Shown here piece after piece: positions 22,536-27,481 of a stretch of 32,235 nucleotides of DNA (position 1 is its first letter; every line of letters starts with the position of its first letter). Source of the stretch: Solirubrobacterales bacterium. Its GTDB lineage: Bacteria > Actinomycetota > Thermoleophilia > Solirubrobacterales > 70-9. Both the position numbers and the translations under genes were made by a program. The stretch spans positions 1-32,235 of the forward strand of contig JAICSS010000026.1 of the NCBI GenBank assembly GCA_025936755.1, in the 5' to 3' direction. The notes beneath the pieces were generated by a model, which was not told the origin of the DNA, searched no databases, and saw only the letters and a program-made list of their open reading frames with translations.

Positions 22536-23372
22536 CTAGAGACCCATCGTCCGGGCGACTATCCGGTCGAAGAGCGGCGTCGGGAGCAGCGGTTTGAGGC
22601 GTGCCTGCACCTTGGCGTCGAGGCCGACCAGGTAGCGCGTCTTCGGCCGGTCCGATTCCAGCGCGTGGGCGATCGCCTTCGCCACCTTCTCCGGCGGGAT
22701 CCCGCGCGCGGCGGTGTCCTCGATCACCTTGCGGAACTTCTCGATCGCGGCGCCGTAGAGGAGATCGGTCTTCGGCGCCTTGGCTTCGATCTCGGTCGCT
22801 TTGCGCTGGCCGCGCTCCCAGATCGGCGTGTCGATCGAGCCGGGCTCGACGATCGCGACCTCGATCCCCCAGGGACGCAGCTCCTGGCGGAAGACGTCGC
22901 CGATCGCCTCGGTCCCGAACTTGGAGGCGTGGTAGGGACCGCCGAAGGGGAAGGCGATGCGGCCGCCGATCGAGCTGAGGAAGACGATCCGGCCTTCGGC
23001 GCGGCGGATCTGCGGCAGCAGCGCCTGCGTCACCGCCACGTAGGCGACGAGGTTGACCTCGAGCTGGTGGCGGAAGTCCTCCAGCGGGATCGTCTCCAGC
23101 GGCCCGGGGATGGCGACGCCGGCGTTGTTGACAAGGCCGTGGAGGCCGTCCGGGCTCCCGCGCTCGACCTGCTCGGCCGCGGCGGCGATCTGCTCGGGCT
23201 CGGTGACGTCGAGGAAGACCGGCGTCAGCCGCTCCGACCCCTCCCCCCGCAGGCTCTCCGCGTCCTCGGGCCTGCGGACGCCCGCGAAGACCCGCCAGCC
23301 GGAGCCGTCGAGCCGCAAAGCGGTGGCCCGGCCGATCCCGGTCGAGGCTCCGGTGACGAGTACGGATCGCAT
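22536..23372 (-). CDS. Short-chain dehydrogenase/reductase
   Basis: 278-residue classical SDR. The nucleotide site GASTGIG is at 8-14, NNAG near 82-85, Asn107, Ser134, and YxxxK (Tyr147, Lys151) complete the catalytic tetrad. The post-catalytic VEPGSIDTPIW is typical. Arginines at 33-34 after the second strand (GVRRPED) suggest NADP(H). The C-terminal region ARLKPLLPTPLFDRIVARTMGL is similar to oxidoreductases acting on hydrophobic alcohols/ketones, but the substrate is unknown. The ATG at 23372 follows a TAGCCT box by 6 nt. The gene is divergent from the DUF559 gene with only 11 bp between start codons, so the promoters overlap the neighbouring 5' end. Confidence 0.92.
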   Translation of the reverse strand: MRSVLVTGASTGIGRATALRLDGSGWRVFAGVRRPEDAESLRGEGSERLTPVFLDVTEPEQIAAAAEQVERGSPDGLHGLVNNAGVAIPGPLETIPLEDFRHQLEVNLVAYVAVTQALLPQIRRAEGRIVFLSSIGGRIAFPFGGPYHASKFGTEAIGDVFRQELRPWGIEVAIVEPGSIDTPIWERGQRKATEIEAKAPKTDLLYGAAIEKFRKVIEDTAARGIPPEKVAKAIAHALESDRPKTRYLVGLDAKVQARLKPLLPTPLFDRIVARTMGL

Positions 23373-23378
23373 CCCCTG

Positions 23379-23384
23379 AGGCTA
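23379..23384 (-). promoter_or_regulatory. -10 box TAGCCT of the SDR gene
   Basis: Minus-strand TAGCCT ends 6 nt before the ATG at 23372. The same hexamer precedes metH. Its first base coincides with the A of the divergent DUF559 gene's ATG at 23384. Confidence 0.45.
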
Positions 23385-24418
23385 TGACGTTCCCGGAAAG
23401 CGCGGCCTGTCGGGCGCCGGCAGGGGGAGAGATCGGCGCTTCCGATTCTCGACACAACAGGGTGGGGCGGGAATCGGACACGCGAAGCAGGCGAGCCTGG
23501 GAGCTGGCGGCGAGGCAGCACGGCATCGTCACCCGCCGGCAGTTGCTGGCGCTGGGCTTCGGACGGAGGTCGATCGAACATCGGGTGGCACGGGGACGCC
23601 TCTTCCCGGTGAGCCTCGGCGTCTACGCGGTCGGCTGGCCAGGGCTCAACCGGAGGCGCCAGTGGATGGCGGCGGTCCTGGCGGGCGGGGACGGCGCGGC
23701 TCTGAGCCATCGCAGCGCGGCGGCGTTGTGGGGGATAGGCGAAGAGGGCGGGTGGATCGAGATCAGCGTTCGCCGGCGCTGCGAACTGCGGCGGCCCGGG
23801 ATCCGGTTCCGCGGCCGGCCGAGCTTGTCACCGGATGACATCGTGCTCCACGACGAGATCCCGGTTACCTCACCAGCGCAGACGCTGGTCGATCTCGCGA
23901 CCGAGCTCGGCCCCGTGCCGCTGGAGCGAGCGGTGAACGACGCCGACAAGCGCGACCTGATCGATCCGGAGGCCTTGCGAGCAGAGCTCATTCGCTTTCG
24001 CGGCAACCCTGGGATCCGCCTCCTGCGCCACCTGCTCGACAGGCTCTTCTTCCGACTCTCGGACTCGGACCTGGAGGTCTATTTCCGTCGCATCGTCAGG
24101 GCCGCGAAGCTCCCGATGCCACTCACCAAACAGAGGGTCAACGGGTTCGAAGTCGACTTCTTCTGGCCTGACCTCGGGCTCGTCGTGGAGACGGACGGCC
24201 TTCGCTACCACCGCACGCCCTCTGCGCAGCTTCGGGACGCCCGCCGCGACCGGGCGCACGTGATGGCGGGGATGACGCCGCTGCGCTTCACGCATTACGA
24301 GGTCCGCTACGAACCCGGCCGCGTCCGCGCAGCGCTCGTCAGGACGATCGCGATGCTGCAGAAGCGCACCCGATTTCGACCACAGCCCGCTGGGGCGGGA
24401 ATCCGATGCGATGCCTGA
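23384..24418 (+). CDS. AbiEi-type HTH plus DUF559 (Vsr-like) nuclease-fold protein
   Basis: Up to 344 residues. Residues about 34-110 (WELAARQHGIVTRRQLLALGFGRRSIEHRVARGRLFPV) match the N-terminal winged helix of type IV toxin-antitoxin AbiEi antitoxins. Residues about 225-325 match DUF559, related to Vsr endonucleases and the PD-(D/E)XK fold: FEVDFFWPDLGLVVETDGLRYH holds candidate acidic residues (Glu/Asp pairs). The two domains frequently co-occur in high-GC actinobacteria as orphan genes. No AbiEii toxin gene is adjacent, so an abortive-infection function is unproven. Start is uncertain: ATG 23384 adds a weakly conserved 33-residue head; GTG 23462 lies inside the repeat at 23442. Codon use is looser than that of neighbours, and near-identical 34-bp segments flank the conserved domains, both suggesting acquisition as a unit. 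Confidence 0.8.
   Translation: MTFPESAACRAPAGGEIGASDSRHNRVGRESDTRSRRAWELAARQHGIVTRRQLLALGFGRRSIEHRVARGRLFPVSLGVYAVGWPGLNRRRQWMAAVLAGGDGAALSHRSAAALWGIGEEGGWIEISVRRRCELRRPGIRFRGRPSLSPDDIVLHDEIPVTSPAQTLVDLATELGPVPLERAVNDADKRDLIDPEALRAELIRFRGNPGIRLLRHLLDRLFFRLSDSDLEVYFRRIVRAAKLPMPLTKQRVNGFEVDFFWPDLGLVVETDGLRYHRTPSAQLRDARRDRAHVMAGMTPLRFTHYEVRYEPGRVRAALVRTIAMLQKRTRFRPQPAGAGIRCDA
23442..23475 (+). repeat. Direct repeat copy 1 at the 5' end of the DUF559 gene
   Basis: Starts CCGATTCTCGACACA and ends TGGGGCGGGAATC. It matches the copy at 24369-24402 in 29 of 35 aligned columns, with one single-base gap on each side. This copy is also bounded by an 8-bp inverted repeat TCCGATTC / GAATCGGA. Confidence 0.6.
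24369..24402 (+). repeat. Direct repeat copy 2 at the 3' end of the DUF559 gene
   Basis: Starts CCGATTTCGACCACA and ends with the same 13 bases, TGGGGCGGGAATC, as copy 1. It overlaps the last codons of the DUF559 gene and includes a small potential hairpin, CCCGC-TGGG-GCGGG. Confidence 0.6.
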
Positions 24419-24435
24419 CCACAGCGGCAACGGCG

Positions 24436-24451: not shown

Positions 24452-27400
24452 GTGCACGAGACCAGCAAGGACGACGCCGAGCGCAAGCAGGTCACCGTCC
24501 TGTTCGCCGACGTCAGCGGCTCCATGGACCTCGCCGAGCAGGAGGACCCGGAGGAGTGGCGCAAGATCATGCAGCGCTTCTTCTCGATCCTCGCCGACAC
24601 CGTGACCCGCTTCGAGGGGACCGTCGACAAGTTCACCGGCGACGGGATCATGGCGATCTTCGGCGCCCCGGTCGCCCACGAGGACCACGCCCGCCGCGCC
24701 TGTTACGCCGCCCTGCAGATGCTCGACGACGTCGCCGAGTACGCGGCCGGGCTGCGCCGCGCCAAGGGGCTCAACTTCTCGACCCGGATCGGGATCAACT
24801 CCGGCGAGGTCGTCGCCGGCGCGATCGGCGAAGGCGGCGGCGCCTACACCGCGATCGGCCACACCGTCGGCCTGGCGCAGCGGATGGAGGCGCTGGCCGA
24901 GCCGGGCAAGGCCTACCTGACCGAGCACACCGCCAAGCTCGCCCGCGGCTACCTCGACCTGCGCGACCTCGGCGAGTTCGAGATCAAGGGCGCGAGCCAG
25001 CCGGTCCAGGTCTTCGAGCTCGCCGGGGTCGGCGAGGCGCGCTCGCGGCTGGACCTCGCCCGCGAGCGCGGCTTCTCCCGCTTCGTCGGGCGCGAGCGCG
25101 AGCTGGCGAAGCTGGAGGAGGCGCTGGGGCGGTCGCAGGCCGGCGAAGCCGCCGCGGTCGGTGTCGTCGCCGAGCCGGGGGTCGGCAAGAGCCGGCTCTA
25201 CCTGGAGTTCGTCGAGCGCTGCCGCAGCGAAGGGGTCGAGGTCTTCGAGGCCCAGGGCCAGGCCCACGGCACGGCGATCCCGTTCATGCCGATCCTGCAG
25301 ATGCTGCGCTCCTTCTTCGGCATCGCCGACAACGAGCCCGAGCAGCTGGCGCGGGAGAAGATCGCCGGCCGGGCGCTGCTGCTCGACCCCTCCTTCGCCG
25401 AGGACCTGCCGCTGATGTTCGACTTCCTCGGCGTACCCGACCCCGAGCGGCCGGTGCCGCAGATGAGCCCGGAGGCCCGCCAGCGCTCCCTCGCCGAAGT
25501 CCTCTGCCGCCTCGTCGGCAAGCCCTCGCGGCGGAAGACCCTGATGCTCGTCTTCGAGGACCTGCACTGGGTCGACGAGGGCAGCCAGGCGATGCTGAAC
25601 GGGCTGATCGAGGGGTTCGGCGGCACCAAGACGCTGGTCCTCTTCAACTACCGCCCCGAGTACTCGCCGCCCTGGGAGGAGGCGGACTGCTTCGAGGCGC
25701 TGGAGCTGGCGCCGCTGCGGCGCGAGGACACGCGCGAGCTGCTGCGCGACCTCGCCGGCGAGGACCCCTCGCTCGACGGGCTCGACGAGCCGATCCACGA
25801 GCGAACCGGCGGCAACCCGTTCTTCATCGAGGAGATCGTCCGCGAGCTGGCCGAGGCCGGCTACCTGGAGGGCGAGCGGGGCGCCTACCGCCTCGCCCGC
25901 CCGATCGAGGGCGCCGGCGTGCCGGTGACCGTGCAGGCGGTCCTGGCGGCCCGGATCGACCGCCTCGGCGCCGACGCCAAGCAGCTGCTCCAGGTCGCCT
26001 CGGTCCTCGGCAAGGAGGTGGGCGAGGAGGCGCTGGCGATGGCCGCCGGTCTCGACGCCGGGGCGATGGAGGGGGCGCTGCGGGCGCTGGTCGACGGCGG
26101 CTTCCTCTACGAAGCCCAGCTCTACCCGGAGCGGCTGCTCGCCTTCCGCCACCCGCTGACCCGCGAGGTCGCCTACGGCACCCAGCTCGCCGAGCAGCGG
26201 GCCGCCACCCACGCCGCGGCGGCGCGGGCGCTGATCGAGCTGGAGGCGCCCGAGCGCTACGACGAGCTCTCGGCACTGATCGCCGACCACCTGCGCCAGG
26301 GCGGCGAGACGCTCGAGGCCGCGCGCTGGTCGGCCCGCGCCGCCCACTGGGCCGGCCACAGCCGCCCGCACGACGCATTGGGGCTCTGGCACAACGTGAT
26401 GGAGCTGACCGACGAGATGGAGGAGAACGAGGAGGTCGCGGCGCTGGCGATCCACTCGCGGCTGCTGCAGCTGCAGTACGCCTGGCGAGTAGGGATGAGC
26501 CGGGAAGAAGAAGGGAGGCTGGCCATCGAAGCCGAGGAGATCGCACTGCGGCACGACGATCTCCATTCGCTGGTGCTGCTGCGGGTGGCAACCTCGGTCC
26601 GCCCTGGCCTCGACCATCACGCCGACGCGTGGCTCGCGGCGGTGCGAGAGACGGTCGAGCTCGCCGACCGTACCGGCGACCGTCACCTTCGCGCGGCGGT
26701 CCGCTCCGCCGGTGCCTACGCATACCTTTGCGCCGGGGACTTCGGAGGCTTCGAGGCCGCTCTGGACGAGCTGCTGGAGCTGGTCGGTGACGACGGCTCC
26801 ATCGGAGCGGGCATCATCCTCGGCAGCCCGATCGCCTGGGGCCTGATGGGGAAGGGCATGGTGCGACGTGAGCAGGGTCGCTACAAGGAGGCCGAAGAGC
26901 TCTTTGACCGCGCTCTGCAACTGACCCTCGAAGAGGACGACCCGGAGACCGCGAGCTGGGTGCGCAGCAACCAGGCGGGGCTACTAGCCATCCGCGGCGA
27001 CATCGAGGGCGGGCTGGCGGTGGCGCGGCGGAACTGCGAGCTGACCGACCGCCTCGGTGACGTCTTCTCGCGCAGCCTTGCCCTCACCAATCTGGGCTGG
27101 GTCCATCTCCTCGCCGAAGAAGGTGAGGCTGCCCTGAGGGCGATCGAGGAGGCCGAGCGTCTCTATCGCGAAGAGATGGGCAGCGGCGGAGAGATGGAGG
27201 GCTGGCGCGCGCAGATGCGGGCGCGGGCGCTGCTCGCGGTCGGTCGCAACGACGAGGCGTTGGAGGCGGCAGAATACTCCGTTCGAGTCTCGTGCGAGCG
27301 GGGCATGCTCTGGACCTACCCGGTAGCGCTGCTGAACCTGGCTCGCGCTCGCGCCGCCTGCGGCCTGGACGGAGTCGGCGAGGCACTGGCTGACGCGACC

Positions 27401-27481
27401 CGCATCGCCCGCCAGACCGAGGCCGTCAGCCTGCTCGCCGATATCCAGAAAGAGGAAGAGGAACTAGCGCCAATCTTGTAG
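24452..27481 (+). CDS. Class III cyclase domain, AAA/STAND-type ATPase and TPR signalling protein
   Basis: 1009 residues in three parts. (1) About 10-190: class III nucleotidyl cyclase domain with metal aspartates Asp20 (LFADVSGSM) and Asp64 (FTGDGIMAIFG), Lys60 as the adenine-selecting residue, and Arg144; the transition-state asparagine is replaced by Gly140 (TVGLAQR instead of TVNxAxR), so catalysis may be weak or absent. (2) About 205-500: predicted ATPase with Walker A EPGVGKSR (241-248) and Walker B LMLVFEDLHWVDE. (3) About 560-1009: helical repeats of TPR type, for example GKGMVRREQGRYKEAEELFDRAL. No membrane segment or DNA-binding domain is visible. Proteins of this layout are common in actinobacteria as signal integrators, with undefined ligands. 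Codon use becomes looser after about position 26480. The GTG start is supported by TAACCT. Confidence 0.9.
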   Translation: MHETSKDDAERKQVTVLFADVSGSMDLAEQEDPEEWRKIMQRFFSILADTVTRFEGTVDKFTGDGIMAIFGAPVAHEDHARRACYAALQMLDDVAEYAAGLRRAKGLNFSTRIGINSGEVVAGAIGEGGGAYTAIGHTVGLAQRMEALAEPGKAYLTEHTAKLARGYLDLRDLGEFEIKGASQPVQVFELAGVGEARSRLDLARERGFSRFVGRERELAKLEEALGRSQAGEAAAVGVVAEPGVGKSRLYLEFVERCRSEGVEVFEAQGQAHGTAIPFMPILQMLRSFFGIADNEPEQLAREKIAGRALLLDPSFAEDLPLMFDFLGVPDPERPVPQMSPEARQRSLAEVLCRLVGKPSRRKTLMLVFEDLHWVDEGSQAMLNGLIEGFGGTKTLVLFNYRPEYSPPWEEADCFEALELAPLRREDTRELLRDLAGEDPSLDGLDEPIHERTGGNPFFIEEIVRELAEAGYLEGERGAYRLARPIEGAGVPVTVQAVLAARIDRLGADAKQLLQVASVLGKEVGEEALAMAAGLDAGAMEGALRALVDGGFLYEAQLYPERLLAFRHPLTREVAYGTQLAEQRAATHAAAARALIELEAPERYDELSALIADHLRQGGETLEAARWSARAAHWAGHSRPHDALGLWHNVMELTDEMEENEEVAALAIHSRLLQLQYAWRVGMSREEEGRLAIEAEEIALRHDDLHSLVLLRVATSVRPGLDHHADAWLAAVRETVELADRTGDRHLRAAVRSAGAYAYLCAGDFGGFEAALDELLELVGDDGSIGAGIILGSPIAWGLMGKGMVRREQGRYKEAEELFDRALQLTLEEDDPETASWVRSNQAGLLAIRGDIEGGLAVARRNCELTDRLGDVFSRSLALTNLGWVHLLAEEGEAALRAIEEAERLYREEMGSGGEMEGWRAQMRARALLAVGRNDEALEAAEYSVRVSCERGMLWTYPVALLNLARARAACGLDGVGEALADATRIARQTEAVSLLADIQKEEEELAPIL

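Follow-up and report, generated by a model that had tools for sequence, protein, structure and literature searches.

Dispersed palindromes associated with AbiEi-DUF559 nuclease genes in a Solirubrobacterales genus: candidate palindrome-nuclease pairs

Introduction

REP-like palindromes are widespread, and in the literature searched RAYT/TnpA-REP is the single mobiliser that is linked to them. AbiEi antitoxins are known DNA-binding autoregulators. PMC3733652 describes REP palindromes that have a GTAG or CGTC tag at their foot. Rickettsia palindromic elements are presented in PMC2229807 as short in-frame inserts within conserved genes, and according to PMC3943268 the EDxHD homing endonuclease I-Bth0305I dimerises on its target, which spans nearly 60 bp. 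No description of a link between DUF559/AbiEi genes and palindromes was found in the open-licence literature searched.

The window considered here is the whole stretch of 32,235 nucleotides of contig JAICSS010000026.1 from a Solirubrobacterales bacterium (genome G000). It contains a DUF559/AbiEi gene between two similar short sequences, which a preliminary description had noticed and proposed to be either the ends of a mobile unit or a regulatory or REP-like repeat.

A probable inserted segment between two conserved genes

The features of the locus are the following:

23390-24434, forward strand: putative insertion, composed of a leader and of the gene between palindromes P1 and P2, delimited by comparison with the empty site of the relative G002, ends to within about 10 nt
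23390-23435, forward strand: leader (CCTG..CAGGGGGAGAG) upstream of P1, read by eye
23436-23483, forward strand: palindrome P1 of family F1, with the likely GTG start codon at 23462 inside it
23384-24418, forward strand: open reading frame (ORF) for an AbiEi-like module and an EDxHD/Vsr-like (DUF559) nuclease
23471-24052, forward strand: residues 30-223, similar to the AbiEi antitoxin 6y8q (winged helix and C-terminal domain)
24059-24364, forward strand: nuclease domain, residues 226-327 (match to 3r3p)
24364-24411, forward strand: P2, the F1-family palindrome at the 3' end of the ORF
22536-23372, reverse strand: short-chain dehydrogenase (SDR), conserved left neighbour
24452-27481, forward strand: class III cyclase/AAA/TPR gene, conserved right neighbour

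The neighbours of the ORF encode a PF00106 protein (the SDR) and a PF00211 protein (the cyclase). Both genes are retained in G002, G003 and G005 (three of the three relatives found to have both neighbours), where they adjoin each other across a short junction. In the window, about 1.05 kb separates the SDR and cyclase flanks, and this DNA is absent in the three relatives: in G002, the flanks CTGAGGCTA and GCGTAACCTT are 11 nt apart. The gene, together with P1 and P2, probably forms one inserted unit; a deletion in G002, G003 and G005 is possible, but less parsimonious. The empty site that the preliminary description suggested looking for thus exists in these three genomes, but without the single repeat copy expected at it: the junctions contain neither a DUF559 gene nor a palindrome.

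The codon use of the ORF is looser than that of its neighbours, as had been proposed: its GC3 is 0.846 (0.942 for the SDR, 0.927 for the cyclase), below the 5th percentile of a genome sample (0.864). The distance of 11 bp to the SDR start that was described earlier applies to the first ATG of the ORF, at 23384. The alternative GTG at 23462, within P1, is the likelier start because homology starts near residue 34. Comparable G-rich leaders precede the palindromes of the paralogs L003, L004 and L005, as read by eye.

The flanking repeats are palindromes

The gene had been described as bounded by near-identical 34-bp direct repeats (23442-23475 and 24369-24402). The similarity is real: 23436-23483 and 24364-24411 are identical at 33 of 48 positions (31/43 for 23436-23478 and 24364-24406), and the 13 identical bases that were reported correspond to the run TGGGGCGGGAATC, common to both. 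Compared without gaps, the exact coordinates of the description give just 16/34 identities, since the two segments are in truth offset by 928 and not by 927. The best ungapped score of P1 against P2 is 19, whereas 300 mononucleotide shuffles reach 16 at most, and these controls rule out a chance origin. P1 and P2 are self-complementary at 34/48 and 32/48 positions, respectively. Both are imperfect palindromes, about 48 nt long and with TCCGATTCTCGCC / GGCGAGAATCGGA-type arms, which rules out a plain direct repeat. The two copies do enclose the two conserved domains, as claimed, that is the AbiEi_4 HTH (residues 40-83) and DUF559 (residues 248-321) detected with Pfam.

The encoded protein

The N-terminal part of the protein is classed as AbiEi by PADLOC (E 7e-32), and likewise by Pfam. 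In the AlphaFold2 model (mean pLDDT 88.2), residues 30-223 match the AbiEi antitoxin 6y8q (Z 12.6, rmsd 3.5, 183 residues aligned) and residues 226-327 the catalytic domain of I-Bth0305I, 3r3p (Z 13.5, rmsd 2.5, 97 aligned); other structural matches of the nuclease domain are 3hrl (Z 13.2) and Vsr (Z 11.5). The EDxHD-type features, a Vsr-like fold and conserved acidic and histidine residues, are present as judged at the level of the fold. The nuclease is likely active, because none of E231, D258, E269 and H276 varies among 36 proteins. By analogy with I-Bth0305I, 40-50 bp would be a suitable palindrome length for a dimer of the nuclease.

The PADLOC and Pfam assignments, and the separate terminator-like hairpins that follow several such genes, would also suit a toxin-antitoxin or defence gene of the ordinary kind, near which hairpins occur by chance or as terminators. 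However, no gene for an AbiEii nucleotidyltransferase toxin stands beside the ORF, whose neighbours are the SDR and the cyclase, the controls exclude chance, and the copy numbers of the palindrome families (see below) contradict this explanation, which is highly improbable.

Palindromes at the paralogous loci

The genome of the window contains 13 matches to the ORF protein, and profile matches are found in all 12 genomes of the genus (4-18 per genome, some of which are fragments). A 5' palindrome is present at most of the 13 loci, and nearly every one is different; a strong 5' palindrome is absent at two of them, L006 and L009. In L003, L004, L010, L012 and L013, the start ATG is apparently within the palindrome. 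Palindromes of one family occur at both ends of the gene, as in the window, in L002, L134, L139, L155, L219 and L221 (read by eye).

In a census of the genus, 45 of the 86 loci scored have a palindrome with a score of at least 11 within 140 nt at the 5' end of the gene, compared to 1/430 shuffles and 0/85 mid-gene segments; roughly half of the loci therefore have no strong 5' palindrome. The census includes one duplicate (L195 is L127), and it skips 10 of 96 loci with no recognised motif, among which L156, L243, L248, L251 and L252 do bear a palindrome. The palindrome score of SDR control genes is at most 12.0 in 30 loci. The centres of the 5' palindromes are mostly at -51 to -66 nt relative to the QHG motif, and the similarity between palindromes correlates weakly with that between proteins (Mantel rho 0.21, p 0.002).

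In a class-wide sample of 99 genomes, with at most 24 candidates scored per genome, the gene is found at E 1e-30 or better in 17 of 18 genomes of the same order and in none of the 81 others. Among the named relatives are MAGs that bear the labels Thermoleophilia bacterium and Actinomycetota bacterium. The link between gene and palindrome is strongest in this genus and patchy outside, because just 3 of 33 loci outside the genus reach a palindrome score of 12; L144 and L145, which are assigned to the genus, are not counted in these 33.

Other features of these loci are recorded here. Hairpins such as CACCCTCACTAAGCAGGTAAGGGTG, 3' of several DUF559 genes, are terminator-like and were set aside. 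Long hairpins with an ACCTG..AAGTAG-like core lie just downstream of several DUF559 genes (L060:1464-1516, L044:1663-1713, L059:4871-4922 and L081:6046-6098) and are probably terminators. L002 (start of G000:C6) and L003 (start of G000:C8) apparently have the same metK C-terminus beside diverged DUF559 genes; the G000 MAG seems to contain this metK/DUF559 locus in the versions of two strains.

Dispersed palindrome families

The strict two-arm pattern of F1 has seven copies in G000 and none in 11 congeneric genomes, and a pattern search in G000 finds more palindromes with both F1 arms at equal spacing. The repeat is therefore present elsewhere in the genome, as the preliminary description had anticipated, but not around the other DUF559 genes, which have their own palindrome families. 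Strong palindromes (score of at least 14) number 44 in 716 kb of this genome, compared to three in a Markov control, and many of them reuse the arms of the palindrome of a nuclease gene. A search with both 12-nt arms of 11 gene-borne palindromes of G000 gives 35 hits in the sample of the same genome, self and cross-family hits included, three in the G010 sample and a mean of 1.6 with shuffled arms; with nine gene-borne palindromes of G010, the figures are 12 hits, and 1 and 0.4 in the corresponding controls.

The number of exact-arm copies of a family varies strongly between the 12 genomes. The GTTCGCA family has 92 copies in G007, 74 in G010, 73 in G001, 15 in G006, 11 in G011, two in G003, one in G004 and none in five genomes. 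The GGCCGAAAA family has 91, 65, 61, 43, 36, 29 and 1 copies (none in five genomes), the CGTTTCC family 13, 5 and 1, and the TTCGTCCT family (F3) 10, 8 and 1 (none in nine genomes in both cases). Reversed patterns give 0 to 1 copies, except that of the F1 strict pattern, which was rejected as a null control since it matches the real GGCCGAAAA family.

A GTTCGCA-type gene is found in six of the seven genomes which have copies of this family: L251, L258 (degenerate), L244, L155, L279 and L128. The look-up of cognate genes in zero-copy genomes covered part of their loci. G002 has eight F3-type solos (copies away from a nuclease gene), yet no F3-type gene is present among the DUF559 loci examined, which speaks against a strict coupling of palindrome and gene.

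The mobility of the palindromes is well supported. The earlier suggestion of a mobile unit or a REP-like sequence is supported by the recurrence of the palindrome and by the gene-less sites in relatives: the repeat is found away from this locus, and the gene is not present in all relatives.

Some palindromes stand apart. G001 has dozens of near-identical GGCCGAAAAGCGCTGATATAGAGCGCTTTTCGGCC palindromes, which suggests a recent burst. An orphan family, CCTGTTCCTTTT..AAAAGGAACAGG, is present at L046:4914-4952 and L064:17946-17984, and no cognate nuclease gene was identified for it in its own genome. A separate family of G+C-rich hairpins of about 65 nt, with a core of the TCCCCGC-TGTTGTCCG type, is intergenic in G000 and G002 (L048:8078-8144, L064:14963-15027, L082:3267-3334, L188:380-444 and L202:4874-4938), and no link to a nuclease was seen.

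Position of the solo copies

In the G000 sample, 28 family solos were placed relative to the genes predicted with a home-made gene caller, with two orphan palindromes left out: nine are inside genes, eight between convergent genes, seven between tandem genes, two between divergent genes and two at the ends of stretches. Many abut stop codons. Those inside genes leave the frame open, for example in genes for a Mur ligase, a laccase-domain protein, an enolase-superfamily protein and a methyltransferase; the laccase-domain gene has 15 gap positions in its alignment with that of G002.

The palindromes might be operators, or mRNA hairpins, by which the AbiEi domain regulates its own expression, in which case the dispersed copies would be its regulon. 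The autoregulation known for AbiEi antitoxins fits this explanation, as does the start codon, which lies in the palindrome or next to it at a place that varies little, as judged from the distance of the palindrome centres to QHG. However, the placement of the solos is unlike a set of operators, because they sit in genes, in frame, or against stop codons, and seldom between divergent genes; moreover the insertions in the Mur ligase, laccase-domain and enolase-superfamily genes preserve the frame, and solos are gained or lost between relatives (see below). The idea that the repeat is purely regulatory, which the preliminary description had considered, is weakened accordingly, and the operator explanation is clearly unlikely for the dispersed copies, even if such a role may hold for the copy borne by the gene.

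Gain, loss and concerted change

Six family solos of G000 have both flanks in the stretches of G002 that were compared. Two solos of the CGTTTCC family are missing from G002, with small gaps (12 and 17 bp), and so is one F1 solo, at a less clean junction. At one site the arms of the palindrome are wholly different between the two genomes, and the two remaining solos are common to both. No clear target-site duplication, of the kind expected for a MITE, was seen at the G000/G002 sites read. Palindromes of entirely different families occupy one Mur ligase site in two congeneric genomes (L045:19245-19286 and L197:6748-6803).

One shared solo, inside a gene, has matching outer arms in the two genomes, with an inner stem CTGACG..CGTCAG in G000 and ACGGTC..GCCGT in G002, a change which parallels the difference between the palindromes of the orthologous genes L011 and L117. 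Similarly, as read by eye, most CGTTTCC copies of G000 have the inner GGTT/AACC of gene L003, and four of the five copies of G002 have the inner CCTCG of gene L127. For the inner half-stems of the GTTCGCA family, the gene of the same genome is the best match in 64 of 93 distinct copies from six genomes, and the true assignment of genes to genomes has the top score among all 720 permutations; this set consists of exact-arm copies of length 39 from selected places (e.g., 7 of the 92 of G007). The inner pairs vary with compensation (for example, columns 15/25 of GTTCGCA are GC in 41 copies, AT in 31 and CG in 12), therefore the pairing itself is kept. Genome-specific inner stems could result in part from the independent expansion of founder copies, instead of conversion.

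Proposed mechanism

The best reading of these observations is that a family of homing-type nucleases serves mobile palindromes which resemble REP elements. The most economical agent of the spread of the palindromes would be the nuclease tied to each family, which may move or convert them. We consider it probable that palindromes and nucleases form pairs, in which each nuclease resides in, and most likely recognizes, its own palindrome, the whole being an inserted unit that spreads by cutting and copying.

The nuclease would cut or nick at palindromes, at divergent palindromes or at target sites, and repair of the break would copy the resident palindrome into the cut site. This copying would seed solos at gene ends and at in-frame intragenic sites, and overwrite divergent copies; the whole unit of palindrome and gene would be copied more rarely, as may have occurred in the window. 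The start codon being inside the palindrome, a hairpin or a bound protein could restrain the expression of the nuclease.

Alternatively, some other machinery, a transposase or replication slippage, could spread the palindromes, with nuclease genes that are captured by them or police them. About half of the genes have no clear palindrome and one family persists in G002 with no detected cognate gene, which would agree with this. On the other hand, the Y1 transposase is absent from 12 of 12 genomes, several families correspond one-to-one to nuclease paralogs, and the inner stems follow the resident gene. This alternative is fairly unlikely.

That such pairs constitute a new class of mobile palindromes, independent of REP/RAYT, is plausible, but we stop short of favoring it. 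In this class, a homing-type nuclease with an antitoxin-like module would spread its palindrome, and sometimes its gene, and rewrite older copies by cut-and-copy conversion; the dispersed copies would be kept in step with the resident version at the start codon, with many families per genome.

Comparison with known systems

The search for the Y1 (PF01797) REP-associated tyrosine transposase is negative in the 12 genomes of the genus, and a control search is positive in 5 of 14 named genomes; mobilisation by RAYT was rejected for this reason. REP-like families therefore occur here without a detectable Y1 family, and several are tied to paralogs of another nuclease.

The resemblance to REP/RAYT systems (TnpA-REP, REPIN) lies in short dispersed palindromes, in tens of copies, specific to a resident nuclease gene that has the same palindrome at its ends: dispersed palindromes in common with the flanks of a nuclease gene are indeed found here. 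However, an AbiEi-Vsr/EDxHD fusion stands here in place of a Y1 HUH transposase, the start codon is inside the palindrome, and many copies are within genes. The GTAG/CGTC foot tag was not noticed by eye in the palindromes inspected.

With I-Bth0305I, the locus has in common the catalytic fold and a gene that is present or absent at otherwise conserved sites; it differs by the fused AbiEi antitoxin module, by the linked dispersed palindromes, and in that no intron or intein was seen. Rickettsia palindromic elements and MITE-like repeats are also short palindromic inserts in frame in conserved genes, but the elements described here are about 36-50 nt long, not 105-146 bp, and are matched to nuclease genes. 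As regards the AbiE type IV toxin-antitoxin system, the N-terminal two thirds of the protein fold as AbiEi 6y8q, whereas the C-terminal part is a nuclease and the neighbouring AbiEii toxin is missing.

If the proposed pairing is true, DUF559/AbiEi fusions, which are annotated as unknown or as antitoxins, gain a concrete and testable role, the paralogs provide a natural series of nuclease-target pairs, and the intragenic solos are a case of short DNA inserts which add in-frame peptides to housekeeping proteins.
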